From: Beijerinckiaceae bacterium | GTDB lineage: Bacteria; Pseudomonadota; Alphaproteobacteria; Rhizobiales; Beijerinckiaceae | Assembly: GCA_947478405.1 (NCBI GenBank) | Contig: CANJVX010000004.1 | Span: forward strand, 62,001-126,000 | Length of the DNA: 64,000 nt | Reading direction: 5' to 3' | Shown: in pieces, positions 20,893-36,017 of the stretch | Position numbering within the stretch: the first letter of the stretch is position 1 | Layout: every line of letters begins with the position of its first letter | Translations under genes and position numbers: made by a program | The notes under the pieces: model-generated | What the model saw: the letters and a program-made list of their open reading frames with translations, nothing else | Told to the model about the DNA's origin: nothing | The model's database searches: none

Positions 20893-21924
20893 TCACTCTC
20901 CCTCGGACGCCTTCATCGCAGCGCGCAGGCTGTTCCAGCGCCGGATGCTCTCATTGGCCCCCAACAAAGCCAAAGCCAGAATAAAAGGCCCGACATAATA
21001 GATAATCCGGAAGAGCAGCAGCGAGGCCAGCAGCGCCTCGGCGGATGGTGCGGGGACCGCGTTGAGCATGGTCGCTTCAAAGGCACCAATACCGCCGGGC
21101 ATATGGCTGGCAATCCCCAAGAGGCAGGCGAGCACATAGGCCGCGCAAAAGGAGACAAAATCGAGCCCGTGGCCTTGTGGCAGAATGACGTAAAGCGCGC
21201 CCGCCGCGCAGCTCAGATCCACCACACCCAAGAGCAATTGGCCCAGCGTCAGGCCGAGGCCCGGGAGTTCCAGCCACAAGCCCTGAACACTGACCCGCCT
21301 GTGCCCGCGTGAAACCCAAGCGAGGTAAACCATGATGCCCCCCAGAATGGCGAGGCCGATGATGAGATTGATCCAGCCCTTGAGCCGGTTCACTTCGCTG
21401 ATCCCATCGGGCTGGATGACCATGGCAATGCCGATCACCAGCGCCATACCGAGCCAGAAGGTGAGGCCGGCAATCAGAGTGAGACTGGCAACTTTGCCGG
21501 CTGTCAGACCGACGCGCGAATAGATCCAGTAGCGCACGGTGCCGGCCGTGATCAGCGGAAAGCCCAGAGTGAAAGAGATGGCGAAAGAGGTGAAAGAGCC
21601 CAAGGCCGTCACGCGGTATGGCACAGCCAAACGCAATTGCCGCAAAGCAACCGCATCATAACCGGTCAGCGCGAGATAAGAGCAGGCCGTGAGCACGCAG
21701 GCTGCCACAATCTGCTCAAGCGACGTCTCCGCTAAAGCCGATCGTAATTCACCCCAATGCAAGCCAGAGACTGTGCGGCCGAGCACAAAGACCGACAGAA
21801 TGAGAATACAAAGGCTAAAGCCCGTGCCCAGCCGCGCCAACCAGAGCCGACGCTGGGCCAGATTCGGATCGCATGCACTGGCCTGCCCATCAAAGATATG
21901 CGGCGCCCCCGCGGGAGCCGCCAT
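20893..21924 (-). CDS. Lysylphosphatidylglycerol synthase-type (UPF0104) integral membrane protein
   Basis: The 343-residue protein has about eight membrane helices and matches the UPF0104/MprF-N family (YLALTGYDAVALRQL, TLGFPLITAGTVRYW, GIASHMPGGIGAFEATML). Members move or flip lipids, but this one lacks the synthase domain of MprF. The ATG at 21924 follows GGGAGGAAG. In-frame codons further upstream would overlap the next gene. It is transcribed after the YfhO-like gene, possibly in one unit with it. Confidence 0.82.
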   Translation of the reverse strand: MAAPAGAPHIFDGQASACDPNLAQRRLWLARLGTGFSLCILILSVFVLGRTVSGLHWGELRSALAETSLEQIVAACVLTACSYLALTGYDAVALRQLRLAVPYRVTALGSFTSFAISFTLGFPLITAGTVRYWIYSRVGLTAGKVASLTLIAGLTFWLGMALVIGIAMVIQPDGISEVNRLKGWINLIIGLAILGGIMVYLAWVSRGHRRVSVQGLWLELPGLGLTLGQLLLGVVDLSCAAGALYVILPQGHGLDFVSFCAAYVLACLLGIASHMPGGIGAFEATMLNAVPAPSAEALLASLLLFRIIYYVGPFILALALLGANESIRRWNSLRAAMKASEGE

Positions 21925-21976
21925 CTCGTCTTCCTCCCGCCTGGACTGATTCATCATACCGCCGCACTTTGCCCGT

Positions 21977-24280
21977 TCAACGTGACAGGAATGAGTCAAT
22001 CGCTGAACGCAGGCTCAGCCGCAAGCCGCGCATCGGCGCAAAGTAAAAGCGCACTTGCCGCGCACCCGGTGGCAGCTTCACAGCCCGAAAAATAACATTA
22101 GCACGCAACACATCACTGCGCTGACCATCAACCTCGACCCGCCACCACGGATGCCAGACATCATTGAGCACAAGATAGCCGCCATCGGGTGCATCGACGG
22201 AAACGCGCACCTGCGTGTTTTGATACAAATCGATCTTCGCACTCGTCGGACGACGCGCCGTTTTGTCGTCTGATCCGGGAGCATCCAGCAAAGCGGTTTC
22301 GCGCGGGTCAAACCCCTGCGGCCAATCCCCGCTTTCAACAAGCGCATCAAAATCGGTTTGTTTTGCACCACGCGCCACCATCACGCGCGGTAGCGCACGC
22401 GGATTTTCATAGACATAGGCATCCTTTGTGCGCGCCACAAAATTGAGATCCCCCGGCTTGAGATCGGGATCGATATTCTCGATTGGATTGGCGGAGGCAA
22501 TAAAACGCACGCCCAGCATGTCAGCCATCAGCGAGCGATAGGATGAAAACAGCGGCACGAAAGGTCGCTGTTCAGCCACTGCGACTTGATCCTGCGCACC
22601 CGTCGCATCAACAAACCACGACAAGCGTACGGGATTATATCCCAGATCATGCTGGAAGCCGTGGATGAGGCCAAGATTGGGCCAATCGAAACCAACAGCT
22701 GCCAGCTCAATGCGATCGATGCGATCCGGGCCTGCAGTTTCAGCTAGTTTTTGGCGCAAGAGCGAGATGGTTTCATTCGCAGTATCTGTGCGCATCACCT
22801 CGAAACGCGAAGCGGGCAAAGCAGTTGATTCATTGGGGCCATTGCTCACAGCAAGATCAGCCGTGAGTGCTCCGCCAACCAGAAGAAGTGTTGCCGCACC
22901 CATCTGTCGACCAAAGCGGCGCAGCAAAAACAGCAGAACCAGAGCGAGCAGGAGCAATCCGCTGCCCAACAGCAGCGGCATTTGCGCCTGCCACAGACGA
23001 CCCTTCCACCAGGCCACCGCCACAGCGGCCGCAAGTCCGGCGACGATAATCAAAACCGGCAACAGGGCGTTGCGCAAAAAGCTCTTGCGTTCATCAGCGA
23101 TGAAACAATGCAGGCCATAGCCACCCAAGATCGAGGCCAGCGCGCAAAGCGGAAAGGTGGCATCGGCGGGCCGGCGAAAGAGATCCGCACCCGGAATTTT
23201 GAACACCAGCTGGTAAAGCGGCGTGAAATCACCGAGCGCATAAAGCAGCATCAAGACGAAGCCGATGAGCAGTGGCGCCATCTCGCGACAAAAAGCCCGC
23301 CCTGCCGCCAGACCTAGGCCCAGAAAAGCCACCAGCGGCAGAGCACCGAAATAAATATTCGCCATATTGCGTGCGAGATTATAGTTGCCACCCCAGACAT
23401 CGGATTCCGGCGGGCCCCAAAACATGGCTATCGGACCATCCGTTCCAAACAGATTGGCTACAAAGGCCGTGAGCAGCGCAGCAGGATGCAAAGAGCCGCG
23501 CGCTGCGCCCTCAAAAACAATCTCTGTGCGCGTGGATTCTTCAGCCAGAACAAGCGTCAGCGAAATCGGTACTGCAATGGTGGTAAGCCCGGCCACAAGC
23601 GCCACGACCAGCGGAACAGCCGTGCGACGCAAAGGGGTTTGAACCAAATTCCAGAAGGCATAAATCACCAAGAGACAGGCGCACAGCAGCGCGATCTGAT
23701 CACGCCCGATCAGCATCAGCCCGCCAAAAAAGCCAGCCAACAATCCATTCCACCAACCGCCGCGTTGAAAAATGCGCGCGACGAACAAAAGCGTTATCGC
23801 GAAAAAGGCAAGGCTCAACACTTCGCCAATATGCTGGATGCGCCAGGCAGCCGAGCCGCCGAATGCAAAACTTAAACCCGCCAACAGCGCGCCGGCAGGG
23901 TGCCAGCCACGATCGCGGAAATACAACATCAAGGCGAGACCGCCGAGCGAGATCATGACGAAGATTGTTGCATCAGCCGCGATGAAGCCCGGATCGCGAA
24001 TAAACTTTGCCACCAGCAGATAGGGCAGCGTGAAGATCAGCGATTGCGGATCGGCAATATGAACCGAGCCTGCGAAGACATAAGGGTTCCAGAAAGGCGA
24101 TTCACCGCTGTGCAGCGTCTTTGAGAGAAAGACGAGCTGGGGATAGAAATGCGCTTTCGCATCCCACGGAATCGTAACATGTCCGGACACCCAGGGCAGA
24201 GCCAGCGCAAAAGCGCAGACCGCAAAGATGATCAGAGCGGCGCTGTAATCGCGATCCGCACCGGGCGTGCGCTGGTCCAT
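21977..24280 (-). CDS. YfhO-family multi-pass membrane protein (GT-C fold)
   Basis: The 767-residue protein has about thirteen predicted membrane helices and a C-terminal periplasmic region. Typical YfhO features are the early luminal Asp in VTIPWDAKAHFYPQ, WNPYVFAGSVHIADPQS, FRRPADATF and the C-terminal NDVWHPWWRVEVDGQ. YfhO proteins are proposed lipid-linked glycosyltransferases that glycosylate cell-envelope polymers. No substrate can be assigned here. The gene lies 6 bases downstream of ribA on the same strand. Confidence 0.8.
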   Translation of the reverse strand: MDQRTPGADRDYSAALIIFAVCAFALALPWVSGHVTIPWDAKAHFYPQLVFLSKTLHSGESPFWNPYVFAGSVHIADPQSLIFTLPYLLVAKFIRDPGFIAADATIFVMISLGGLALMLYFRDRGWHPAGALLAGLSFAFGGSAAWRIQHIGEVLSLAFFAITLLFVARIFQRGGWWNGLLAGFFGGLMLIGRDQIALLCACLLVIYAFWNLVQTPLRRTAVPLVVALVAGLTTIAVPISLTLVLAEESTRTEIVFEGAARGSLHPAALLTAFVANLFGTDGPIAMFWGPPESDVWGGNYNLARNMANIYFGALPLVAFLGLGLAAGRAFCREMAPLLIGFVLMLLYALGDFTPLYQLVFKIPGADLFRRPADATFPLCALASILGGYGLHCFIADERKSFLRNALLPVLIIVAGLAAAVAVAWWKGRLWQAQMPLLLGSGLLLLALVLLFLLRRFGRQMGAATLLLVGGALTADLAVSNGPNESTALPASRFEVMRTDTANETISLLRQKLAETAGPDRIDRIELAAVGFDWPNLGLIHGFQHDLGYNPVRLSWFVDATGAQDQVAVAEQRPFVPLFSSYRSLMADMLGVRFIASANPIENIDPDLKPGDLNFVARTKDAYVYENPRALPRVMVARGAKQTDFDALVESGDWPQGFDPRETALLDAPGSDDKTARRPTSAKIDLYQNTQVRVSVDAPDGGYLVLNDVWHPWWRVEVDGQRSDVLRANVIFRAVKLPPGARQVRFYFAPMRGLRLSLRSAIDSFLSR

Positions 24281-24286
24281 GTCGCC

Positions 24287-25429
24287 TCAGTCCTTTGCGC
24301 CACCTTGTGCGGGCGGGGCGTTGTCCAGCACGTCAATAAAATGGCCCGCGCGATCGCGCTTAGATGCGAGATAACGCACATTCTGAACCGTCTGGCGACC
24401 GACAACCCGCTGGTCAGCGTCCACTGTGAGACCGGCCTGCTCAAGAGCAGCAATCTTGATCGGATTATTGGTCATAACGCGCACAACACTCACGCCCAAT
24501 TGCTTGAGCATGACAGCGGCAAACGCAAATCCGCGCTGATCATGATCAAATCCCAATACTTCGTCGGCGTCATAAGTGTCATAGCCCTGCCCTTGCAGGC
24601 GATAGGCGCGGATCTTGTTGGACATGCCGTTTCCACGACCTTCCTGATCGAGATAAAGCAGAATGCCGCCGCCATTTTCAGCCATGAAATGTGCCGTATG
24701 GCGCAATTGATCACCGCAATCACATTTCAGCGAACCGAAGAGATCACCCGTCAGGCAGGCGGAGTGCAACCGCACCGTGACGGGCTTGGACAGATCAGGC
24801 TTGCCGATGATCACAGCCACTTGATCGCGAAAGCCCTCGCCGCCACGAAACACGACAAACTCGCTATCGGCTGCACCTTCCAGCGGCACAGGTGCGCGCG
24901 AGATAATGCGCAAATCGTGCTGCTGCGCGTCACGAAAGGCCGACACATCCTGCGGGCTCACCCAAACGAGCGCGTCAGCAAAGGCGCTATGGGGGGCAGC
25001 AAAAGAGACCAGCGCGGGCAGAACGAGTGCGAGGCGCATCAATTCGAGTGCCGCATTTTCTTCGACCGAAAGCGCGCAAACGGGCGCATCAATCCGCGCC
25101 TGTGTGTCAATCGCCAAATGAGCGATGCGGGCGGCATCAACCTGCGGCAGGGCCAGCGCACCAGCCTCCTGTCGGTCGACGCCCAAATGACGCAAACGGG
25201 GCGCTGCGAGAAGCAGGCGGGCGTGACCATTCGCATGGGTGGCTATTTCAGAACAGGCATCTTCATCCAGCGCCTCGACGCAGACGCAGACGCAAAGACC
25301 CTCCGCCCCGGAAACTGCCACGGGCCGGCCGGACCTAATTTCCGCCAAAGCACGCTCGACCTTTATCTGGCCAGACACGTCTGCGGCCAATAGACTGCGT
25401 TCACGATCCGTCACGCAAACCTCACTCAC
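24287..25429 (-). CDS. ribA: GTP cyclohydrolase II with degenerate N-terminal domain
   Basis: The C-terminal 200 residues form a complete GTP cyclohydrolase II: zinc cysteines in HSACLTGDLFGSLKCDCGDQ, YLDQEGRGNGMSNKIRAY, QGYDTYDADEVLGF and LTNNPIKI replaced by MTNNPIKIAALEQAGL. It opens GTP to the diaminopyrimidine precursor of riboflavin. The N-terminal 170 residues sit where RibB lies in RibBA but show no recognisable DHBP synthase motifs, so that half may be structural. It starts with GTG and diverges from a RibD-type reductase. It may serve riboflavin synthesis or the atypical pterin-like cluster next door. Confidence 0.88.
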   Translation of the reverse strand: MSEVCVTDRERSLLAADVSGQIKVERALAEIRSGRPVAVSGAEGLCVCVCVEALDEDACSEIATHANGHARLLLAAPRLRHLGVDRQEAGALALPQVDAARIAHLAIDTQARIDAPVCALSVEENAALELMRLALVLPALVSFAAPHSAFADALVWVSPQDVSAFRDAQQHDLRIISRAPVPLEGAADSEFVVFRGGEGFRDQVAVIIGKPDLSKPVTVRLHSACLTGDLFGSLKCDCGDQLRHTAHFMAENGGGILLYLDQEGRGNGMSNKIRAYRLQGQGYDTYDADEVLGFDHDQRGFAFAAVMLKQLGVSVVRVMTNNPIKIAALEQAGLTVDADQRVVGRQTVQNVRYLASKRDRAGHFIDVLDNAPPAQGGAKD

Positions 25430-25519
25430 TGGGAAGACCGCTCAAACGGATGCGCGGCTCCCCGGCCCTTTCTTTGCCCCGCTCATAGCCTATATCTGGG
25501 GCGGAAACTAGGATTGTCC

Positions 25520-26272
25520 ATGCCAGTGGACGCGCCCCAAGCCATCAAAGCAGTGCTAATTATGCCAAGCGATATATTGCCAAGCGATCCCTTCGCCCCT
25601 TTCCGGGCAGCCGACCCGACACGGCCTTTTGTGGTGGCCCAACTTGGGCAATCACTCGACGGACGCATCGCCACGCTCTCGGGAGCCAGTAAATATATCA
25701 ATGGCGCCTCCGCGCTCGACCATCTTCACCAGATCCGCGCAGAGGTGGATGCCGTCGTCGTCGGGGCTGGCACGATCCGCGCGGATGATCCCCTGCTCAC
25801 TGTGCGCCGCGTGCCTGGTCGCAGCCCAGCCCGCATTGTCATTGACCCCAGCGCCCGCTTGCGTGGGCCCGCGCGCTGGCTTGATCCTGATGGCACACCC
25901 TGCTTTCTCATCACGCGGGAGGATGCGCCCACGTTCGAAATTCCCGGCACCGAGCAAATCCGCCTAGCCGCCACTGCCAAAGGAATTGCGCCGCACGACA
26001 TTGTGAGTGCACTTTTTTCGCGTGGACTGACAAAGATTCTCATTGAAGGTGGCGCACGCACAATCTCCTCATTCATCGATGCAGGCTGCGTCGACCGGCT
26101 GCATTTGCTGATCGCGCCGATCATCATCGGATCTGGCCGCAACGGGCTTGATCTTGCACCCATCGAAGATCTCACCGGCGCCTTGCGCCCCAAGACGTTT
26201 CTGCACCGTTTGGCAGATAATGAAATTCTCATCGATTGCGACTTGCGCACGGAGGCGGGAGGCGAGACATGA
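25520..26272 (+). CDS. RibD C-terminal-type reductase (DHFR-like fold)
   Basis: The 250-residue protein has only the reductase half of RibD: FVVAQLGQSLDGRIAT, VDAVVVGAGTIRADDPLLTVR, ILIEGGARTISSFIDAGCVD and LIAPIIIGSGRNGL. RibD-CTD proteins reduce the ribosyl group of the GTP cyclohydrolase II product with NADPH. The deaminase half is absent, so a partner deaminase or a different product is implied. The ATG at 25520 is used; a TTG 6 bases upstream is also in frame. It diverges from ribA and overlaps the cytochrome b561 gene by ATGA. Confidence 0.87.
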   Translation: MPVDAPQAIKAVLIMPSDILPSDPFAPFRAADPTRPFVVAQLGQSLDGRIATLSGASKYINGASALDHLHQIRAEVDAVVVGAGTIRADDPLLTVRRVPGRSPARIVIDPSARLRGPARWLDPDGTPCFLITREDAPTFEIPGTEQIRLAATAKGIAPHDIVSALFSRGLTKILIEGGARTISSFIDAGCVDRLHLLIAPIIIGSGRNGLDLAPIEDLTGALRPKTFLHRLADNEILIDCDLRTEAGGET

Positions 26273-26808
26273 AGCGGCTGGAATATTCACACGCGTCAAA
26301 GTTTTTGCACTGGGTCACGGCTTTATTGATCTTCGGCGTCTTGCCCATGGGCTTTGTGCTGGATGATCTGCCAGAAGGTCGCATTCAGAATTTGGGCTAT
26401 GATCTACATCGCTCCTTCGGCTTTGTGCTTCTGCTATTGGCAGCCGCGCGCCTCGCTGTACGCCAGATTTATGGTGCGCCCGAAGCCTATGCAGGATTGA
26501 CAGCTTTTGAACGACGCGCCTCCACTGCGACCCATCACTTGCTTTATATGTTGTTGATCCTCACACCCTTGCTGGGCTGGGCGGCAACATCCGCTTACCC
26601 GGTAACTATCTCGATATTCTGGCTGTTCAATCTGCCGCCGCTGGCCCCGCAAAGCGAAGCGCTGTCGAAAGTGCTTTTCAAATTGCATGAGGCTTCGGCA
26701 ATCGGCATCGCCTTGCTGCTAGTTGGCCATATTGGCGGGGCGCTGATGCATCGGCTCATTAAGCGCGATGGCGTGATGGAGCGCATGTTGCCCGCTCGCA
26801 AGAGCTGA
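26269..26808 (+). CDS. Cytochrome b561 family protein
   Basis: This 179-residue, four-helix di-heme membrane protein should move electrons between quinol and a periplasmic acceptor such as superoxide. Heme-ligand histidines are visible in ASKFLHWVTALL, YDLHRSFGF, TATHHLLYML and FKLHEASAIG. The ATG overlaps the RibD-type stop. The stop TGA abuts the stop of the convergent methyltransferase gene, leaving no intergenic space. Confidence 0.9.
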   Translation: MKRLEYSHASKFLHWVTALLIFGVLPMGFVLDDLPEGRIQNLGYDLHRSFGFVLLLLAAARLAVRQIYGAPEAYAGLTAFERRASTATHHLLYMLLILTPLLGWAATSAYPVTISIFWLFNLPPLAPQSEALSKVLFKLHEASAIGIALLLVGHIGGALMHRLIKRDGVMERMLPARKS

Positions 26809-27636
26809 TCAGACAGGTACCGCGAAAAGATCGACATGGCCGATCTCACAGGATGCCGAGTTTTCGCGCGCGGCACGCCATGCTTCGATTTCAGCAGGAT
26901 TAACAGCGCCTGTTTCAGTAACTGCAGATGCAGCACCTTGCGCGAGCTGGCGTAGTAAATCACCTTGCTGCAGGCGCCACGGACTCATACCAGACACCAC
27001 ATGAAACGCTCGTATCTGCAAAGCTTGTGTCAAATGGGCCGCTGCATCTGGCCCTGAAGCCAAGCCAAGTCCCTTGTCACTTTTCTGATGCGCGTGAAAC
27101 GCCGCCAAAACGGCATCGTCTGCATGATGGGAAGGTGACCAGACCTCGTGTCCATCATAGGTGAGAATAGCATAGAGGGGCAGTTTGCGTGCAGCCAATG
27201 CGTCACACAAACCATCCATCCAATCCGCTGAAACAAGATCGAAGAAAGCCGTGGCGGTGAGCAGATCAACGCCCTCCAGCAAGCGGCCGGGATCGCGCGC
27301 GAGATCAGCTTTTTGCGTATGCACCACAAGTGTGCGATCCGCTTTGCGAAGAGACAGCACGCCATCGCGCTCTTGTGCATCATCTGCCCAAGCCGAAAGG
27401 CGCGTACGCGCAGCAGCGAGCAAATCTTCATCCCAATCAATCAGCCGCCACGTCTGAGAAAGAGGCAAATGCAGCGCCATAGCGCGCAGATTTGAGCCTG
27501 TGCCACAGCCGAAATCGACAATTGTCATCTGGGTGCGATGAGCAAAATGGGCGAATACAGCCGCGGCAACCTGAGGCGCGCGGGCGGCGTGATCGGCGGG
27601 CTCGCGCAAGGCGAGCCAATCGGGTGAGAAACTCAT
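26809..27636 (-). CDS. Class I SAM-dependent methyltransferase
   Basis: This 275-residue protein has the SAM-binding motif I VDFGCGTGSNLRAMAL near residue 45 and an acidic motif II LIDWDEDLLAAAR. The C-terminal half is not diagnostic. The substrate is unknown. The ATG at 27636 overlaps the glycosyltransferase stop (ATGA). It is the last gene of a four-gene operon (dehydrogenase, PTPS-like, glycosyltransferase, methyltransferase), which suggests that it methylates the same small molecule or glycoside. Confidence 0.83.
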   Translation of the reverse strand: MSFSPDWLALREPADHAARAPQVAAAVFAHFAHRTQMTIVDFGCGTGSNLRAMALHLPLSQTWRLIDWDEDLLAAARTRLSAWADDAQERDGVLSLRKADRTLVVHTQKADLARDPGRLLEGVDLLTATAFFDLVSADWMDGLCDALAARKLPLYAILTYDGHEVWSPSHHADDAVLAAFHAHQKSDKGLGLASGPDAAAHLTQALQIRAFHVVSGMSPWRLQQGDLLRQLAQGAASAVTETGAVNPAEIEAWRAARENSASCEIGHVDLFAVPV

Positions 27637-28685
27637 GAATGCGCCTCCGCCAAAACCTGCGCCACAATCTGCACCGCCTCTTCCCATGCCGGCAGGCGCG
27701 CGCCTGCAGCATAAGACGCATCCGCCAATTGACGACGAAGAGTGCCATCACTCAGCACACTTTGCAGCGCTTGACCCAAGGCCTGCGCATCGCCTGCTGT
27801 GACCTTGAGAGCAGTCCCATCCGGCAAAGTCTCAGCCAGTGCGCCACCATCGGTCGAGACCAAAGGCAGGCCGCGCACCATAGCTTCGCCCACCACCATG
27901 CCATAGCCTTCATAACGAGAGGGCATGACGAAGAGATCTGCGCGATCATAAAATTGCGCGAGGTGATCCGACGCAACTTCGCCCGCCAGCGTGATGCGAT
28001 CCGACAGTCCGCTGGCCGCAATTTGCGCAACCAGCGCAGCTGTATGATCAGGCGCCCGCTTCAGAGAGCCAACGATCGTCAAATGCCAGTCAAACATGCG
28101 GCAGGCGTCAAGTGCAGGCACAAGCACATCATAGCCTTTTCGTGGCACCACAGAGCCCACACACAGAAGCTGTGCAGTCTGCAGGCCACTTCCCTGCGCG
28201 CGTGGTGCACGCGCAGTCCCTGGCAAAGCCACGGCTACATGTGCCGGAGTAACGCCATAATCAGCAATGAGACCATCACGAGTTGAGACAGAGGTCACAA
28301 TCACACGATGCGCAAAAGAAAGCGCCAATCGTTCACTCTGGGCCAGCGCCTGCATCCTCTCAGCTGACAGGCCAGTCTCCAGCGCTAAAGGATGATGCAC
28401 CAGCGCGACAATGTAGGCGCGAATGGTTTTCAAAACTGGCTCAGGCAGCACGCCAAAAGCAAGCCCGTCGCAGAGTAAAATTTCGTCCGCTGGGATGGCC
28501 GATAAAAGCGCCGAAGTTTGCTCAAGCGCCTGCGCAGAGGGAAAGGGAAATCCTTCTGGCAGAGCGATATGTCGCATATCAACACCAACAGACGCCGCGC
28601 GCGCCAGCACTTCACGATCATAGGCGTAGCCCCCGGTGAGGGACGTGAGATCACCGGGAATGGCGAAAGCGGCGCGCAGTTTCAT
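27633..28685 (-). CDS. Glycosyltransferase family 4
   Basis: The 350-residue GT-B enzyme has a donor domain with LLCVGSVVPRKGYDVLVPAL near 195 and the EX7E motif in RYEGYGMVVGEAMVRGLPLV near 275. GT4 enzymes transfer a sugar from a nucleotide sugar. The ATG at 28685 lies 5 bases after the PTPS-like stop. Placement between a PTPS-fold protein and a methyltransferase resembles pterin glycosyltransferase contexts known from cyanobacteria, but the acceptor here is inferred only from neighbours. Confidence 0.86.
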   Translation of the reverse strand: MKLRAAFAIPGDLTSLTGGYAYDREVLARAASVGVDMRHIALPEGFPFPSAQALEQTSALLSAIPADEILLCDGLAFGVLPEPVLKTIRAYIVALVHHPLALETGLSAERMQALAQSERLALSFAHRVIVTSVSTRDGLIADYGVTPAHVAVALPGTARAPRAQGSGLQTAQLLCVGSVVPRKGYDVLVPALDACRMFDWHLTIVGSLKRAPDHTAALVAQIAASGLSDRITLAGEVASDHLAQFYDRADLFVMPSRYEGYGMVVGEAMVRGLPLVSTDGGALAETLPDGTALKVTAGDAQALGQALQSVLSDGTLRRQLADASYAAGARLPAWEEAVQIVAQVLAEAHS

Positions 28686-28690
28686 CTGGT

Positions 28691-29092
28691 TCAGGCGACC
28701 GGGCCTTCGAACCAAGCGCGGGCAACATGGCTTTCATGCAGCGTCACACGGATTTTTACAATGCCTTCACCGCCGGGGCCCAAATCACCCTTTTTGGCAG
28801 CGCTCGCCATGTGATCGAAAATATATTTCGACAAAAATTCAGTCGTTGTCTGACGGCCCTTGAATTGCGGCAGCGTGTCGAGGTTTTGATAATTGAGCGG
28901 GCCCAGAACAGCCTTCAGCGCCTCATGGGCGCGACCGATATCGACCACCACCTCATGTTCATTCAGCGTTTCGCGGTAGAAAGCCACATCGACAACGAAA
29001 GTCGCACCATGCATATTCTGCGCAGGGCCAAAGAATTCGCCCTTGAACGAATGGGCTATCATAATGTGCTCGCGCACTTCCAATGCATACAT
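28691..29092 (-). CDS. PTPS/QueD-fold protein lacking canonical active-site residues
   Basis: The 133-residue protein has the 6-pyruvoyltetrahydropterin synthase fold (opening REHIMIAHSFKG, VVDIGRAHEALKAVL, TTTEFLSKYIFDHM, HESHVARAWFEG). In QueD the segment C-x4-HGH carries the catalytic Cys and two zinc histidines. Here it reads AQNMHGATF, so the Cys and one zinc His are missing. The DHHYLN catalytic His region reads LNYQNLD. The E in LHES is kept. It is probably not a standard PTPS or QueD and may bind a pterin without the usual chemistry. It sits between a BchC-like dehydrogenase and a glycosyltransferase. Confidence 0.78.
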   Translation of the reverse strand: MYALEVREHIMIAHSFKGEFFGPAQNMHGATFVVDVAFYRETLNEHEVVVDIGRAHEALKAVLGPLNYQNLDTLPQFKGRQTTTEFLSKYIFDHMASAAKKGDLGPGGEGIVKIRVTLHESHVARAWFEGPVA

Positions 29093-29104
29093 GCGGTTTA
29101 CTCC

Positions 29105-30115
29105 TCAATAGCGAACGACCGTGGCAAGCGCGCCAGCGGAGGGATGGAAAATGTCTGACAGTTTTTCGGGCAGCGTCTCGAAGGCAATTTCATCCGTGAT
29201 CAAACGATCCAGCACATCGTCTCGCAGCAAGTCGAGGGCTTTGGCAAGTCGGCGCGCATAAGTCCAACGCGGACGGCGTGAGGGCGCGATATGACCGACC
29301 TGCGAGGAAATGAGGCGCAGACGCCTCGAATGGAATGATCCGCCCAGCGGCGCCATGACGGGCGTATCACCATACCAACTGATCTCAACCACCGTGCCCT
29401 CAAGCCCAGCCGCATCGAGCGCGGTTGCCAGCCCCTCAGCCGAAGCGCTCGCATGAAAGACAATATCCGCATCACCGGCCAGCGCGCCCGGTGTGCGGAA
29501 TTCCGCACCAATTGCATTCACCAAAGCCGCGCGTTGCGGCTCGATATCAACAACGACCACCTCGGTGCCAGGCAGTCGCGCCGCCAGATAAGCTACCAAG
29601 AGACCAACAAGACCCGCACCGATCACAACGACCCTGTCACCAGGGCCAGCACCCGAATCCCACAGAGCATTGAGGGCCGTTTCCATATTGGCGGCCAGAG
29701 CGGCTCGGCGCAGCGGCAGACCATCGGGCACGGGCACGAGCCGATCCACCGGCGCGATGAAATGGGTCTGGTGGGGATGGAGGGAAAAAACGGGAATCCC
29801 GAGCCAATCTTTGGGCCCCTCCTCGATGATCCCGACGGCGCAATAGCCATATTTGACAGGGTAGGGGAACTCACCCTCCTGAAAGGGGGCTTTCATCCGC
29901 TCATACTCGGACACCGGCACGCGGCCCTCATAGACGAGGCGCTCCGTTCCCCGACTGATGCCCGACCAGAGCGTGAGGACGAGCGCCTCTCCAGCCCCGG
30001 GCGCGTCTAGAGACATCGGGCGCAATTCGCCGCGTGCCTTGCCCGTATACCAGAGTGCCCGGCCCTTCACTGGCTCTGCCTGACTGCCTTCGCCCTTTTT
30101 CATCTCGACCGCCAT
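29105..30115 (-). CDS. Medium-chain dehydrogenase, BchC-like, without zinc ligands
   Basis: The 336-residue NAD(P)-dependent oxidoreductase has the Rossmann motif VVVIGAGLVGLLVAYLAARL near 150 and a GroES-like N-terminus with SGISRGTERLVYEGRVP. The structural and catalytic cysteine motifs of zinc alcohol dehydrogenases are absent. The SGIS-GTE pattern recalls BchC, the bacteriochlorophyllide dehydrogenase. No other photosynthesis gene is present, so the substrate is probably different. It is the first gene of the four-gene operon. Start options are GTG at 30127 and ATG at 30115. Confidence 0.8.
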   Translation of the reverse strand: MAVEMKKGEGSQAEPVKGRALWYTGKARGELRPMSLDAPGAGEALVLTLWSGISRGTERLVYEGRVPVSEYERMKAPFQEGEFPYPVKYGYCAVGIIEEGPKDWLGIPVFSLHPHQTHFIAPVDRLVPVPDGLPLRRAALAANMETALNALWDSGAGPGDRVVVIGAGLVGLLVAYLAARLPGTEVVVVDIEPQRAALVNAIGAEFRTPGALAGDADIVFHASASAEGLATALDAAGLEGTVVEISWYGDTPVMAPLGGSFHSRRLRLISSQVGHIAPSRRPRWTYARRLAKALDLLRDDVLDRLITDEIAFETLPEKLSDIFHPSAGALATVVRY

Positions 30116-30169
30116 GCCTGCACCCACTAATGTCCGACCACCCGAGCTTGGGCGCTATTCGAGAGCATC

Positions 30170-31984
30170 ATGTCGCAAACTAAACATGTCGCAAAGATGA
30201 CGCCCGCAGGACTCCAATTGGCTACGGTTCTAACCCGCCGACGGATCGCTGCAGCCCTCCTGAATGGCGCGACCTATCTGGCCCTTCTATGGTGGCTTGC
30301 CGCAATTCTGGGGGATCAGGGCTGGAGCGTCATTGATTGTCTGATTTTTGTCTGTTTCGCCATCGCTGCACCCTGGAGTGTGCTGGGTGTATGGAATGCC
30401 TTGCTCGGCTTGTGGCTTCTTCACATCCGCCGTGACAGCCGCACCCTTGTCGCACCTTATGCAGAAGTTGGCGACATGCTGGTGCCACTGCAGGCACGCA
30501 CCGCTATTCTGATGACATTGCGCAATGAGGACCCTGCACGTGCCTATGCGCGGCTTGAAACCCTCATTCTCTCGCTTGTTGCGACTGGGGAAGATCTCTT
30601 CTTCTCCTTCTTCATCTTGAGCGACACGAATGAAGCGGCCGTCGCGCAGGAAGAAGAGCGCCGCTATGAAGATTTGAAAGCGCGTCATCCGCGCTTTGCC
30701 GCGCGCCTGCATTATCGTCGACGCCTGACCAATGAAGGTTACAAGGCAGGCAATGTGCGCGATTTCTGCCAGCGCAATGGTGCTGAGTTTGAATTCATGC
30801 TGCCGCTGGATGCTGATAGTCTTATGTCGGGCGAAACGATCCGCCGCATGGTGCGCATGGCGCAGGCCTATCCCAAGCTTGGCATTTTGCAGAGCCTTGT
30901 TGTGGGTGCGCCGACACAATCTGGCTTTGCGCGCGTGTTTCAGTTCGGCATGCGCCATGGCATGCGCCCCTACACAATGGGCGCTGCTTGGTGGGCGGGC
31001 GATTGCGGCCCCTTCTGGGGTCATAATGCGCTCGTGCGTATTGCCCCTTTCCGCAATCATTGTGACTTGCCGGTTTTGCCCGGTGGCCCGCCGCTGGGCG
31101 GACAAATTCTCTCGCATGACCAGGTCGAGGCCGTATTCATGCGCCGCGCTGGTTATGAATGTCGTGTCTTGCCGGAAGAATGTGGCTCTTACGAAGACAA
31201 TCCGCCAACGCTTCTTGAATTCACTCGGCGTGACCTGCGTTGGTGCCAAGGCAATATGCAATATTGGCATTTGCTGGGCATGAAGGGGCTTGAACCGATG
31301 AGTCGGTTCCAACTCGTCTGGGCCATCATGATGTTTGTCGGCGTGCCGGCCTTCACGCTCATCATTCTGCTGGCCGCATTGAAACCGCTCGACGGTGAAG
31401 ACCTCACGCGTTTTCCTGCTGACAAGGCGATTGCTTTCTATCTGGCCTTTCTTGGCATGTATCTCGCGCCCAAACTCGCCGGCTTTCTCGACATTGTGCT
31501 TACAAGGGGCGGTCTTGCACGCTACGGCGGGGCTCTGCGTTTTTTCTCGGGTGCGCTTCTGGAAGTACTATTCTCCTTCATGCTGGGTGCTGCCACCACG
31601 CTGCGCACTGCCCTGTTCATGATCGGGCTCGCCTTCGGCCATTCCGTCGTCTGGAACGGACAGGCGCGCGATGCCCATCAGCTATCATTCGAAAAAGCGC
31701 TGGAAGGGCTCTGGCCGCACACTCTGTTCGGCTTCATTCTTTACGGAATTTGCCTCCAGCTGGCACCCTCGCTCATCCTCTGGTCCTTGCCGCTGACCAT
31801 CGGCTATATTCTGGCAGCCCCCTTCGCAGCGCTCACATCAGGACCCGCTTTCGGCGCCTTCCTCAAGAGCACAGGCCTGTGTGCCATTCCTGAGGATTTT
31901 GCGCCCCCCCCTGTTCTCACCATGCTCGAAAGCATCTCCACATCATCCGAACCAACATTGCCAAGAAAGCTCGAGACGATATGA
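30170..31984 (+). CDS. opgH: Glucans biosynthesis glucosyltransferase H
   Basis: OpgH polymerises the glucose backbone of osmoregulated periplasmic glucans across the inner membrane. This 604-residue form has membrane helices at both ends and a GT2 domain: AILMTLRNEDP, MLPLDADSLMSG (DxD), the catalytic acid region EECGSYEDNPPTLLEF and RDLRWCQGNMQYW as the QxxRW motif. It is shorter than E. coli OpgH (847). The next gene overlaps by ATGA. No opgG is adjacent. Instead an unrecognised secreted protein follows. Confidence 0.9.
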   Translation: MSQTKHVAKMTPAGLQLATVLTRRRIAAALLNGATYLALLWWLAAILGDQGWSVIDCLIFVCFAIAAPWSVLGVWNALLGLWLLHIRRDSRTLVAPYAEVGDMLVPLQARTAILMTLRNEDPARAYARLETLILSLVATGEDLFFSFFILSDTNEAAVAQEEERRYEDLKARHPRFAARLHYRRRLTNEGYKAGNVRDFCQRNGAEFEFMLPLDADSLMSGETIRRMVRMAQAYPKLGILQSLVVGAPTQSGFARVFQFGMRHGMRPYTMGAAWWAGDCGPFWGHNALVRIAPFRNHCDLPVLPGGPPLGGQILSHDQVEAVFMRRAGYECRVLPEECGSYEDNPPTLLEFTRRDLRWCQGNMQYWHLLGMKGLEPMSRFQLVWAIMMFVGVPAFTLIILLAALKPLDGEDLTRFPADKAIAFYLAFLGMYLAPKLAGFLDIVLTRGGLARYGGALRFFSGALLEVLFSFMLGAATTLRTALFMIGLAFGHSVVWNGQARDAHQLSFEKALEGLWPHTLFGFILYGICLQLAPSLILWSLPLTIGYILAAPFAALTSGPAFGAFLKSTGLCAIPEDFAPPPVLTMLESISTSSEPTLPRKLETI

Positions 31985-33012
31985 AAGCGCCGATTTCCGC
32001 ATTTCTTTTTGCCCTTCTGGCGACACAGGCTATTGCGCAAAGCCCATCGCGCCCGCCCGTGAAAACGCCCGTGCCCGTGGCGCCGGAATTTGTGCCGCCC
32101 AAGGAAGGCATCAATCCCAAAGAGCTGGCCGTGAATGTTGCCAATCGCTCGGTTCCGGTGCTCTGCGCTGAGAAAGATAATGTGGAACTCACATTCACCT
32201 CGCCCGCCGTGCGTGACTTCCGCATTCAGGCCGTACATCCGCCCTACATCGGCACGATCAATGTTGATCGCTATGCGCCCGACTTCACCTCTTGCGATAT
32301 GTCGGCTGATCCCGTCTATCGCTCAGATGCAAGCAAAGAGCAGCGCATCACATTTTGGGAAACGCCTGATTTCTGGTTGACGGGTTATATTTATCCCTCC
32401 TTCTGGCGCCCGGCGAATGTGCCTATCCGCATTGGCAATCGCGAAGTGAAGGGGCTGCATATGGTGCAGCTCTGGATGAAATATCGCGAACGCGCCGAAG
32501 AAGTGCTCGTCTTCTATCCGCCTGATGGCTATTGGCGTGCGCGCCCGCTGCCGTTCGCTGATATGCGCTGGACCTCTTATGGTTCATCCTTTCTGATTGG
32601 TCCGGTGGAAGTGCAGCAACGCCCCATTGTTGATCTGAAAAGCATCGCGCTGGACCCCGCCACCATGACCTTCACGCTGGAATTTGCCCGCGGCGGATCG
32701 GCCAAATTGAAGATCGACACAATCGATCAGGAACGTTTTGTGATTGAAACGAGCCTCTCTCCAGATGTGCCGCGCAACTATCCCTTCGCCTCCATGCGCT
32801 CCATGTATGCAACCGAATTCAATTCGGATGTTGCGCGCGTGGCCTGGCGCACAAAGGGCGTGGAAGCCTGGGGTGAAGCGCCTGTCATGTCTTTCAAAGG
32901 TGCGGACGTCACCGAAATCTGGGCTGGGCGCACTGTGCCTTCCTTGCACAATAAAAGCGCGCCCGACATGATCTTCAGCCATTTCACTGACAAGCCGGCG
33001 GCTGCCAAGTGA
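31981..33012 (+). CDS. Secreted protein of unknown function in the opgH operon
   Basis: I do not recognise this 343-residue protein. It has a Sec signal peptide ending near TQAIAQ (residue 20), a Pro-rich linker, then a beta-rich domain with two cysteines (VLCAEKD and FTSCDMSADP) that could form a disulfide. No membrane helix follows the signal, so it should be periplasmic. It overlaps opgH by ATGA and is followed closely by a DUF1624-type membrane protein. The context suggests a role in glucan extension, release or modification, possibly taking the place of OpgG. Confidence 0.7.
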   Translation: MKAPISAFLFALLATQAIAQSPSRPPVKTPVPVAPEFVPPKEGINPKELAVNVANRSVPVLCAEKDNVELTFTSPAVRDFRIQAVHPPYIGTINVDRYAPDFTSCDMSADPVYRSDASKEQRITFWETPDFWLTGYIYPSFWRPANVPIRIGNREVKGLHMVQLWMKYRERAEEVLVFYPPDGYWRARPLPFADMRWTSYGSSFLIGPVEVQQRPIVDLKSIALDPATMTFTLEFARGGSAKLKIDTIDQERFVIETSLSPDVPRNYPFASMRSMYATEFNSDVARVAWRTKGVEAWGEAPVMSFKGADVTEIWAGRTVPSLHNKSAPDMIFSHFTDKPAAAK

Positions 33013-35204: not shown

Positions 35205-36017
35205 ATGTCGGTTTCCCAGGCGATTTCCTCGCATATTCCATATTTGCGGCGGTTTGCCCGCGCGCTGTCGGGGAGCCAAGCCAGTGGGGATGCCTATGTC
35301 CTTGCATCACTTGAAGCAATTGTCACAGATCCATCTTCTTTCCGTACCGGAAGCGAGGCACGCACAGCACTTTACCGGGTATTTCTGAAGGTTTGGGCCT
35401 CAACCCAGATTGATGACCATGCGCGAGGTGCAACCCAGCACACAGATGAGGCTGGCGCGCGACGTAGCCTAGATGCCATTTCATTACGCCCGCGAATTGC
35501 TTTCCTGCTATCGTCACTTGAAGGGTTCGAAACTGGCGAGGTGGCTCAGGCGCTAGATTGCCCTCGGGATGAAGCCCTCGCTCTGATCGAGACGGCCAGC
35601 AAGGAAATTGCCGACCAGATCCGTACCGATGTCCTCATCATCGAAGATGAGCCCTTCATCGCGCTCGACCTTCAAACGCTCGTCGAAGAACTCGGGCACC
35701 AAGTCATCGCTATTGCCCGCACGCATAAGGAAGCGGTCAAAACGATCGACACGCACAAGCCTGGCCTCATTCTCGCAGATATCCAGCTAGCTGACGGCTC
35801 GTCAGGTTTGGAAGCCGTGAACCAGATTCTTGGCAATATGGAAGTGCCGGTGATCTTCATCACTGCCTATCCGGAACGCTTTCTCACGGGCCAACCCCCC
35901 GAACCGGCTTTTCTCATCACCAAACCGTTCGGCGTCGACTCCCTGAAGGCAGTCATTTCGCAAGCACTGTTCTTTGATCGTCGCTCGAAACGCGCTTCGC
36001 AGGAGCGCATAGCCTGA
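35205..36017 (+). CDS. phyR: PhyR response regulator (sigma-like plus receiver)
   Basis: PhyR mimics EcfG with its N-terminal sigma-like domain (residues 1-135) and sequesters NepR after phosphorylation of the C-terminal receiver. The receiver has VLIIEDEPFIALDLQ, the phosphoacceptor Asp in LILADIQLADG, ITAYPER and the KP of FLITKPFG. The length of 270 residues is typical. It diverges from nepR-ecfG. The PhyR histidine kinase that usually accompanies it was not found in this window. Confidence 0.95.
   Translation: MSVSQAISSHIPYLRRFARALSGSQASGDAYVLASLEAIVTDPSSFRTGSEARTALYRVFLKVWASTQIDDHARGATQHTDEAGARRSLDAISLRPRIAFLLSSLEGFETGEVAQALDCPRDEALALIETASKEIADQIRTDVLIIEDEPFIALDLQTLVEELGHQVIAIARTHKEAVKTIDTHKPGLILADIQLADGSSGLEAVNQILGNMEVPVIFITAYPERFLTGQPPEPAFLITKPFGVDSLKAVISQALFFDRRSKRASQERIA

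Follow-up and report, generated by a model that had tools for sequence, protein, structure and literature searches.

A PTPS-IV gene cluster with a RibD-type reductase in a Beijerinckiaceae genome: a candidate small-molecule pathway branching from riboflavin synthesis

Introduction

Proteins of the PTPS family are known for a catalytic triad, zinc-binding His residues and a Glu anchor. One of the named subfamilies, PTPS-IV, corresponds to cluster-node 62 of the AGeNNT analysis of 2017, which gave it the signature FGPAQ and a gene neighbourhood with PF00925 and PF01872 (PMC5445326). The section of that article on the subfamily names these two partners, calls PF00925 GTP cyclohydrolase I/FolE2, and states neither a product nor a proven function. 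The closest solved structure to the protein studied here is SCO6650 of Streptomyces coelicolor (PDB 3d7j), which was released in 2008 under the title of a 6-pyruvoyltetrahydropterin synthase homolog. The open-licence literature that we searched does not name SCO6650, nor does it contain a description of the gene set reported below.

Known pathways to pterin glycosides enter via GTP cyclohydrolase I, unlike the present cluster, which has GTP cyclohydrolase II (GCHII) and a reductase of the RibD C-terminal type (RibDc) at its proposed entry. The pteridine glycosyltransferases of cyanobacteria and Chlorobium have a GT4-like domain, and the GT4 protein of our cluster weakly matches UDP-glucose:tetrahydrobiopterin glucosyltransferase (E 1.9e-4), although many other GT4 enzymes outscore this match. 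The best solved relatives of RibDc are archaeal-type diaminopyrimidine phosphate reductases (6p8c, 2azn), which also consist of the reductase only. These are riboflavin enzymes by name, whereas the host of RibDc has a full RibD besides.

The locus and its genes

The window analysed here is a stretch of 64,000 nucleotides from Beijerinckiaceae bacterium (GCA_947478405.1, contig CANJVX010000004.1, positions 62,001-126,000 of the forward strand), and all coordinates are window positions. An earlier note had named seven open reading frames as a biosynthetic cluster. All seven lie where it had placed them, and Pfam profiles bear out the families assigned to them. They are given here with three neighbours:

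20893..21999, minus strand: LPG_synthase_TM (flippase-like) protein, possible accessory, profile match
21977..24280, minus strand: YfhO-like membrane protein downstream of RibA, possible accessory, profile match
24287..25429, minus strand: RibA, GTP cyclohydrolase II whose N-terminal domain is poorly conserved (PF00925 162 bits; NF006456 468 bits)
25514..26272, plus strand: RibDc, RibD C-terminal-type reductase, deaminase domain absent (PF01872 140.5 bits)
26269..26808, plus strand: cytochrome b561, accessory (PF01292 89.8 bits)
26809..27636, minus strand: class I SAM methyltransferase (MT), start in an ATGA overlap with GT4 (27.1 bits, below the Pfam cut-off of 30)
27633..28685, minus strand: GT4 glycosyltransferase with a conserved EGYGM...EA motif (PF13692/PF00534 103.4/97.7 bits)
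28691..29092, minus strand: PTPS-IV protein with FGPAQ (PF01242 79.4 bits)
29105..30127, minus strand: MDR dehydrogenase (ADH), start codon uncertain, distant from BchC, conserved cysteines absent
30170..31984, plus strand: MdoH-like glucosyltransferase, divergent neighbour, putative pathway part, profile match

The operon is tightly packed, with 12 bp between ADH and PTPS, 5 bp between PTPS and GT4, and the 4-bp ATGA overlap between GT4 and MT. An overlap of the same kind joins RibDc and cytochrome b561. The resemblance of the dehydrogenase to BchC, from which it had been called BchC-like, is only weak, and its score (49.2 bits, where TIGR01202 requires 291.25) rules out membership of that family. 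Fold searches with the methyltransferase returned generic class I enzymes only. Control by an FMN riboswitch was also discarded, as the whole window searched with Rfam at the gathering threshold gave CC2171 only.

Residues of the PTPS-IV and RibDc proteins

The signature FGPAQ occurs in the window PTPS and, counting it, in 131/134 sequences. The cluster thus shows both the signature and the PF00925/PF01872 neighbourhood printed for PTPS-IV (PMC5445326), and by its sequence the window protein is a member of this subfamily. To that section, our analysis adds the ADH, GT4 and MT partners, the genome-wide co-occurrence with RibDc and the following residue changes. The window protein retains two of the three zinc His, and its catalytic Cys and Asp-His positions are altered. 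More precisely, all 134 sequences have Ala at the position of the catalytic Cys and HGA in place of HGH, and the pocket residues H14, H28, A24 and A30 are equally invariant (134/134). E120 is kept in 125/134; the 9 with Ser perhaps reflect alignment shifts. The protein shares with QueD (PTPS-I), the 6-carboxytetrahydropterin synthase, the fold (TM about 0.7), the two zinc His and the Glu anchor. It differs in the HGA and Ala substitutions, and a QueD or queuosine identity is ruled out by the missing CxxxHGH motif and by a score of 37.5 bits against the TIGR03367 cut-off of 89.25. Its likeness to SCO6650 is much closer (full-length match with E 3.9e-59; Foldseek TM 0.93 at 56% identity), the gene neighbourhoods that we read being those of other Streptomyces.

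RibDc matches PF01872 alone, over residues 38-214 of 252 (cut-off 24.1 bits). The N-terminal deaminase domain is missing in Pfam searches, which rules out a bifunctional RibD. A Lys of RibG helps to tell substrates apart. At the Lys of the host's full RibD, sequences of the RibDc type have Gln or His in 87/88 aligned rows (Gln in the window), and the reductase of M. jannaschii has Asn. From the change of this Lys to Gln or His, we predict that RibDc acts on the non-deaminated diaminopyrimidine.

RibA and the riboflavin genes of the host

The window RibA narrowly passes NF006456 (cut-off 464 bits). The residues of E. coli GCHII with known roles are three zinc Cys and the catalytic Tyr and Arg, and their equivalents (C54, C65, C67, Y105 and R128) are all kept. 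The host encodes a separate full-length RibD, FolE, and a RibBA that has lost its cyclohydrolase residues, so that our searches of the genome found no intact GCHII besides the window RibA, whose gene may also supply riboflavin synthesis. The earlier note would have been refuted had the window's ribA and RibD-type genes been the sole riboflavin genes of the host and had the operon genes not recurred together elsewhere; the separate RibD and the wide co-occurrence described below speak against both.

The Streptomyces fungicidicus cluster encodes a RibA whose Tyr105 position is occupied by Met, with a creatininase gene adjacent. Prior work reportedly exists on SCO6655 and on GCHII with Met for Tyr. 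We considered whether creatininase is paired with a RibA that stops at a formylated intermediate, but this idea is weakened by the residue comparison, where 9/10 loci with both genes have Tyr at this position, and the pair is thus not evidence for the pathway proposed below. The Beijerinckiaceae genome itself carries a creatininase gene, L216, a BrbF candidate.

Co-occurrence and spread of the gene set

Among 385 genomes of Alphaproteobacteria, RibDc is found in 39/45 with PTPS and in 1/340 without (cross-table 39, 6, 1, 339), with a RibDc-type line of 126 bits chosen after the score lists were seen and with Fisher values that ignore the relatedness of the genomes. The association extends beyond physical linkage. 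In two genomes the pair is clearly unlinked on one contig, 62 kb apart in G028 and 951 kb apart in G380; in a third (G035) the genes are on separate contigs but may still be linked, as PTPS lies close to the end of its own. The RibDc type is missing from the other 6/45 PTPS genomes, and the S. fungicidicus cluster has no RibDc within 10 kb.

The loci were counted by searching their open frames with profiles. Within 8 kb of PTPS in 44 loci of the class (host excluded, some cut by contig ends), we found ADH in 43, GT4 in 42, MT in 38, RibDc in 35 and RibA in 17. ADH, GT4, MT and RibDc were all present in 30/44, so the operon genes of the earlier note do occur together widely. Across 98 loci, left after excluding the 36/134 without 5.5 kb on both flanks, ADH and GT4 are each near PTPS in 94 and MT in 88. 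By group, RibDc is near PTPS in 40/56 and RibA in 24/56. Membrane and transfer genes recur as well: MdoH in 26/56 groups, FkbM in 13/56, CDP-OH phosphatidyltransferase in 12/56, LPG_synthase_TM in 5/56 and YfhO-like genes in 4/56. The LPG_synthase_TM family is also present in the Microbacterium, Peteryoungia and Agrobacterium clusters. A simple soluble glycoside as product would leave the recurrence of the CDP-alcohol phosphatidyltransferase, MdoH and FkbM genes unexplained. Cytochrome b561 lies within 8 kb in 9/44 class loci and 33/80 named loci, of which the class set is the fairer, since the named loci are those nearest to the window.

RibA is associated with the PTPS cluster, optionally and more loosely than RibDc. 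In the order, a RibA of at least 170 bits (a line also chosen after the score lists were seen) occurs in 32/57 PTPS genomes and in 6/152 others; it is absent from 25/57. As 20/57 lack any GCHII match at E 1e-20, RibA is not obligatory. Across the class, RibA of the window kind is common without PTPS (129/340 genomes). The earlier note had linked ribA and ribD to the operon from proximity; the RibDc side of this link is well supported, and the RibA side is looser.

Related clusters are found in Alpha-, Beta- and Gammaproteobacteria and in Actinomycetota, many of the relatives being MAGs, and similar gene sets are annotated on plasmids of Microbacterium, Thiodictyon and Methylosinus, among them pOB3b1 of Methylosinus trichosporium OB3b. 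The same note knew of no described alphaproteobacterial pathway with this set. By way of correction, the subfamily had a name, its RibA/RibD_C neighbourhood was in print (PMC5445326), and the set extends beyond Alphaproteobacteria.

Proposed pathway and alternatives

We consider it somewhat probable that the cluster encodes a conserved pathway to a small molecule, one that leaves riboflavin synthesis at the GTP-derived diaminopyrimidine and yields a pyrimidine or pterin that is both glycosylated and methylated. RibA, or another supply of the riboflavin intermediate where it is absent, would provide 2,5-diamino-6-ribosylamino-4(3H)-pyrimidinone 5'-phosphate. Its reduction by RibDc, with deamination skipped, would be the committed step and would leave the 2-amino group on the ring. 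The MDR dehydrogenase would next oxidise a hydroxyl, and PTPS-IV would hold the 2-amino-4-oxopyrimidine or pterin ring through its conserved pocket Glu, with a chemistry different from that of QueD/PTPS. Glycosylation by GT4 and methylation by the methyltransferase would follow, the nature of the product being deduced from these enzyme classes. Cytochrome b561, MdoH and the membrane proteins may also take part.

A more specific version is tentative, and we regard it as rather unlikely: a pterin route independent of GTP cyclohydrolase I, with a glycosylated and methylated product, widespread in Proteobacteria and Actinomycetota. After GCHII had opened GTP, RibDc would turn the ribose into a ribityl chain, the dehydrogenase would oxidise the C2' hydroxyl, and ring closure between the new ketone and the free 5-amino group would take place in the pocket of PTPS-IV. 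Formally, the outcome would be the 7,8-dihydroneopterin skeleton (C9H17N5O5 - 2 H - H2O = C9H13N5O4), to be modified by GT4 and the methyltransferase.

The recurrence of membrane and transfer genes near PTPS could point to a lipid- or envelope-linked product, in which CDP-alcohol phosphatidyltransferase, LPG_synthase_TM and MdoH/YfhO-type proteins would join the glycoside to a phospholipid-like carrier or glycan. A CDP-OH phosphatidyltransferase is annotated next to the core in Streptomyces, Microbacterium, Thiodictyon, Peteryoungia and Agrobacterium. However, none of these genes is as constant as ADH and GT4, window positions 18001-42000 have no match to the CDP-OH phosphatidyltransferase profile, and MdoH is frequent mainly in loci near the window (66/80 named against 10/44 class loci), which makes such a product an improbable, though not negligible, alternative. 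We find it more doubtful that PTPS-IV uses a pterin from GTP cyclohydrolase I, a dihydroneopterin derivative, with RibA and RibDc serving riboflavin or merely reducing pterins. Pterins are possible substrates of RibD-type reductases, and the host has FolE. In its part on PTPS, Life 2016 also gives dihydroneopterin triphosphate as the substrate (PMC5041015). Against this reading, RibDc tracks PTPS across genomes, the host has another full RibD, and the catalytic positions of PTPS are altered.

That ordinary riboflavin genes adjoin a carbohydrate operon by chance seems very unlikely. The window RibA is indeed the sole intact GCHII found in its genome, and RibA matches (E 1e-10) occur in 166/385 class genomes, but the RibDc type is nearly confined to PTPS genomes, distantly related groups carry the set as well, and the host has its separate RibD. 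Least credible is a step in the deazaflavin (F420) pathway. A remark in Life 2016 (PMC5041015), citing unpublished work, places PTPS-IV in F420 synthesis. Yet the host, the one genome tested for it, has no CofD-family match at E 0.001, whereas 10/14 control genomes are positive by the same search; as the assembly is 95% complete, this absence is not proof, and an F420 role is simply not supported.

Significance

PTPS-IV is a named subfamily with a structure that became available in 2008 (SCO6650), and we found no proven function for it in the literature consulted. Its association with RibDc (also where unlinked, in two genomes), ADH, GT4 and, mostly, MT gives it a concrete candidate pathway with a testable entry substrate. 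If the pathway branching from riboflavin synthesis is confirmed, the label 6-carboxytetrahydropterin synthase, which the gene bears in 14/20 plasmid records found, would be corrected, and an undescribed class of metabolites in environmental bacteria would come to light.

Organization of the cluster

The gene set and family names proposed in the earlier note are borne out by family matches, except that the dehydrogenase called BchC-like (ADH, an MDR dehydrogenase) resembles BchC only distantly (49.2 bits against a cut-off of 291.25).

Genes of the cluster (window coordinates)
24287-25429, divergent from RibDc, GTP cyclohydrolase II (GCHII), RibA
25514-26272, convergent with the operon, deaminase-less RibD-type reductase, RibDc
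26269-26808, convergent with the operon, as RibDc, cytochrome b561
26809-27636, minus strand, methyltransferase (MT), operon member
27633-28685, minus strand, glycosyltransferase GT4, operon member
28691-29092, minus strand, PTPS-fold protein, operon member
29105-30127, minus strand, ADH, operon member

The operon runs ADH-PTPS-GT4-MT, with a 12-bp gap, a 5-bp gap, and then a 4-bp ATGA overlap, and RibDc and cytochrome b561 also join by an ATGA overlap. An MdoH-like glucosyltransferase and an unassigned protein (30170-33012) are transcribed divergently from the operon; the latter (31981-33012) has no match in Pfam or NCBIfam. The window also contains a PhyR-type response regulator (35205-36014) and the Caulobacter sRNA family CC2171 (RF01867; 48101-48243, 80.1 bits).

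Residues of the PTPS-fold protein and RibDc

The nearest solved relative of the PTPS-fold protein, the sole host match to the PTPS Pfam family, is SCO6650 (3d7j; profile match E 3.9e-59), to which its predicted model (mean pLDDT 90.6) compares with a TM of 0.93 and 56% identity. Aligned with the C. elegans enzyme, it has Ala for Cys, HGA for HGH, and Asn-Tyr for Asp-His, at positions that we take to be the PTPS catalytic residues. Across 134 PTPS sequences, the window's among them, H14, H28, A24, and A30 are invariant, position 68 is Tyr in 123, position 67 Asn in 93, and position 120 Glu in 125, while FGPAQ is present in 131. One study (PMC5445326) gives FGPAQ as the signature of PTPS-IV. It also reports PF00925 and PF01872 among the neighbours of 561 such sequences and names the former GTP cyclohydrolase I/FolE2, unlike Pfam, whose description is GTP cyclohydrolase II. 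Both the subfamily and some of its gene context have thus been published before. Another paper (PMC5041015) assigns PTPS-IV to F420 on unpublished work, a role unsupported in the host, whose genome (3.03 Mb, 95% complete) has no CofD match.

RibDc, whose closest solved structures are 6p8c and 2azn, lacks a deaminase domain. At the position that presumably distinguishes 2-oxo from 2-amino substrates, the host RibD and chain 7lrh have Lys and M. jannaschii has Asn; RibDc has Gln in 67 and His in 20 of the 88 rows aligned (of 90).

Distribution of the gene set

PTPS was found in 45 of 385 genomes of Alphaproteobacteria. Within 8 kb of it, in the 44 loci other than the host's, lie ADH (43), GT4 (42), MT (38), RibDc (35), RibA (17), MdoH (10), and cytochrome b561 (9); the first four occur together in 30/44. 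In an equally large set of class genomes, RibDc matches at E 1e-25 split into a high group (at least 126 bits, 40 genomes) and a lower one (at most 116 bits) that looks like ordinary RibD. All but one of the high group are PTPS genomes (both, 39; PTPS alone, 6; RibDc alone, 1; neither, 339; Fisher p 7e-46, relatedness ignored), the single exception, G127, being 74% complete. The pair lies 62 kb apart on one contig in genome G028 and 951 kb apart in G380, so the association is more than neighbourhood; in G035 they are on separate contigs, PTPS close to a contig end, and may still be linked.

The link that the earlier note drew from proximity between the operon and the ribA/ribD side thus holds for RibDc and is softened for RibA. 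RibA matches at E 1e-10 occur in 37/45 PTPS genomes of the class versus 129/340 others, and, in the host's order, matches of at least 170 bits in 32/57 versus 6/152. However, GCHII gives no match at E 1e-20 in 20 of these 57 PTPS genomes, which makes RibDc rather than RibA the constant partner. Against RibDc as obligatory, none was found in the Streptomyces fungicidicus stretch. In that cluster (L159, 13645-15138), RibA has Met at the Tyr105 position and adjoins a creatininase-family gene; elsewhere in the aligned rows the zinc Cys, Tyr, and Arg are kept. This pairing proves nothing, since creatininase also lies close to 9 Tyr-type RibA.

More widely, PTPS occurs in 27/398 genomes of a phylum sample (E 1e-15) and in 20 of 72,556 plasmid records (Streptomyces, Rhizobium, Methylosinus, Thiodictyon, Arthrobacter, Microbacterium, and others). 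Of 593 relatives, the best 80 belong, by record title, to groups that include Hyphomicrobiales, Rhodospirillales, Caulobacteraceae, Burkholderiales, Xanthomonas, and Marinobacter. Two of 98 well-flanked loci, in Rhodomicrobium (L089) and on a Streptomyces anthocyanicus plasmid (L160), lack ADH, GT4, and RibDc in the stretch, and are perhaps stray or repurposed copies. The accessory genes recurring around the clusters, in 56 groups, are MdoH (26), cytochrome b561 (19), FkbM methyltransferase (13), CDP-alcohol phosphatidyltransferase (12), creatininase (10), ABC exporter (7), sulfatase (7), and LPG_synthase_TM (5); their recurrence hints at a membrane- or envelope-linked product, which we keep as a rival reading. 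The 31981-33012 protein recurs in 4 of these groups.

A putative branch off riboflavin synthesis

The earlier note raised the question of a second riboflavin set in the host. The genome carries a separate RibD (378-residue frame, N-terminal half deaminase-like by eye), and also FolE and one creatininase-family protein. Its second GCHII-like protein, immediately outside the window (C4:127551-128036), is a RibBA in whose aligned stretch neither the QEGR motif nor any of the three zinc cysteines is present. From these residues only its DHBP synthase half appears credible, which leaves the window's RibA as the only intact GCHII found in the host; it may also feed riboflavin. We read the pathway as beginning at the diaminopyrimidine, supplied by RibA in some genomes and by the riboflavin route in others. 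A published account (PMC9478397) describes an alternative riboflavin route in rhizobia using BrbF, a creatininase-like formamidase.

The observed part of the mechanism is the gene set, its co-occurrence, and the residues. RibA would turn GTP into the diaminopyrimidine and RibDc would turn this into a ribityl compound; ADH may then oxidize, PTPS-IV bind and perhaps close a ring, GT4 glycosylate, and MT methylate. A bolder form, in which a dihydroneopterin-type pterin is made without GTP cyclohydrolase I, fits the atom count on paper and seems to us unlikely. For the branch at the diaminopyrimidine, leading to a glycosylated, methylated pyrimidine or pterin, the product should retain the 2-amino ring edge, which the PTPS Glu presumably holds, because RibDc contributes no deaminase.
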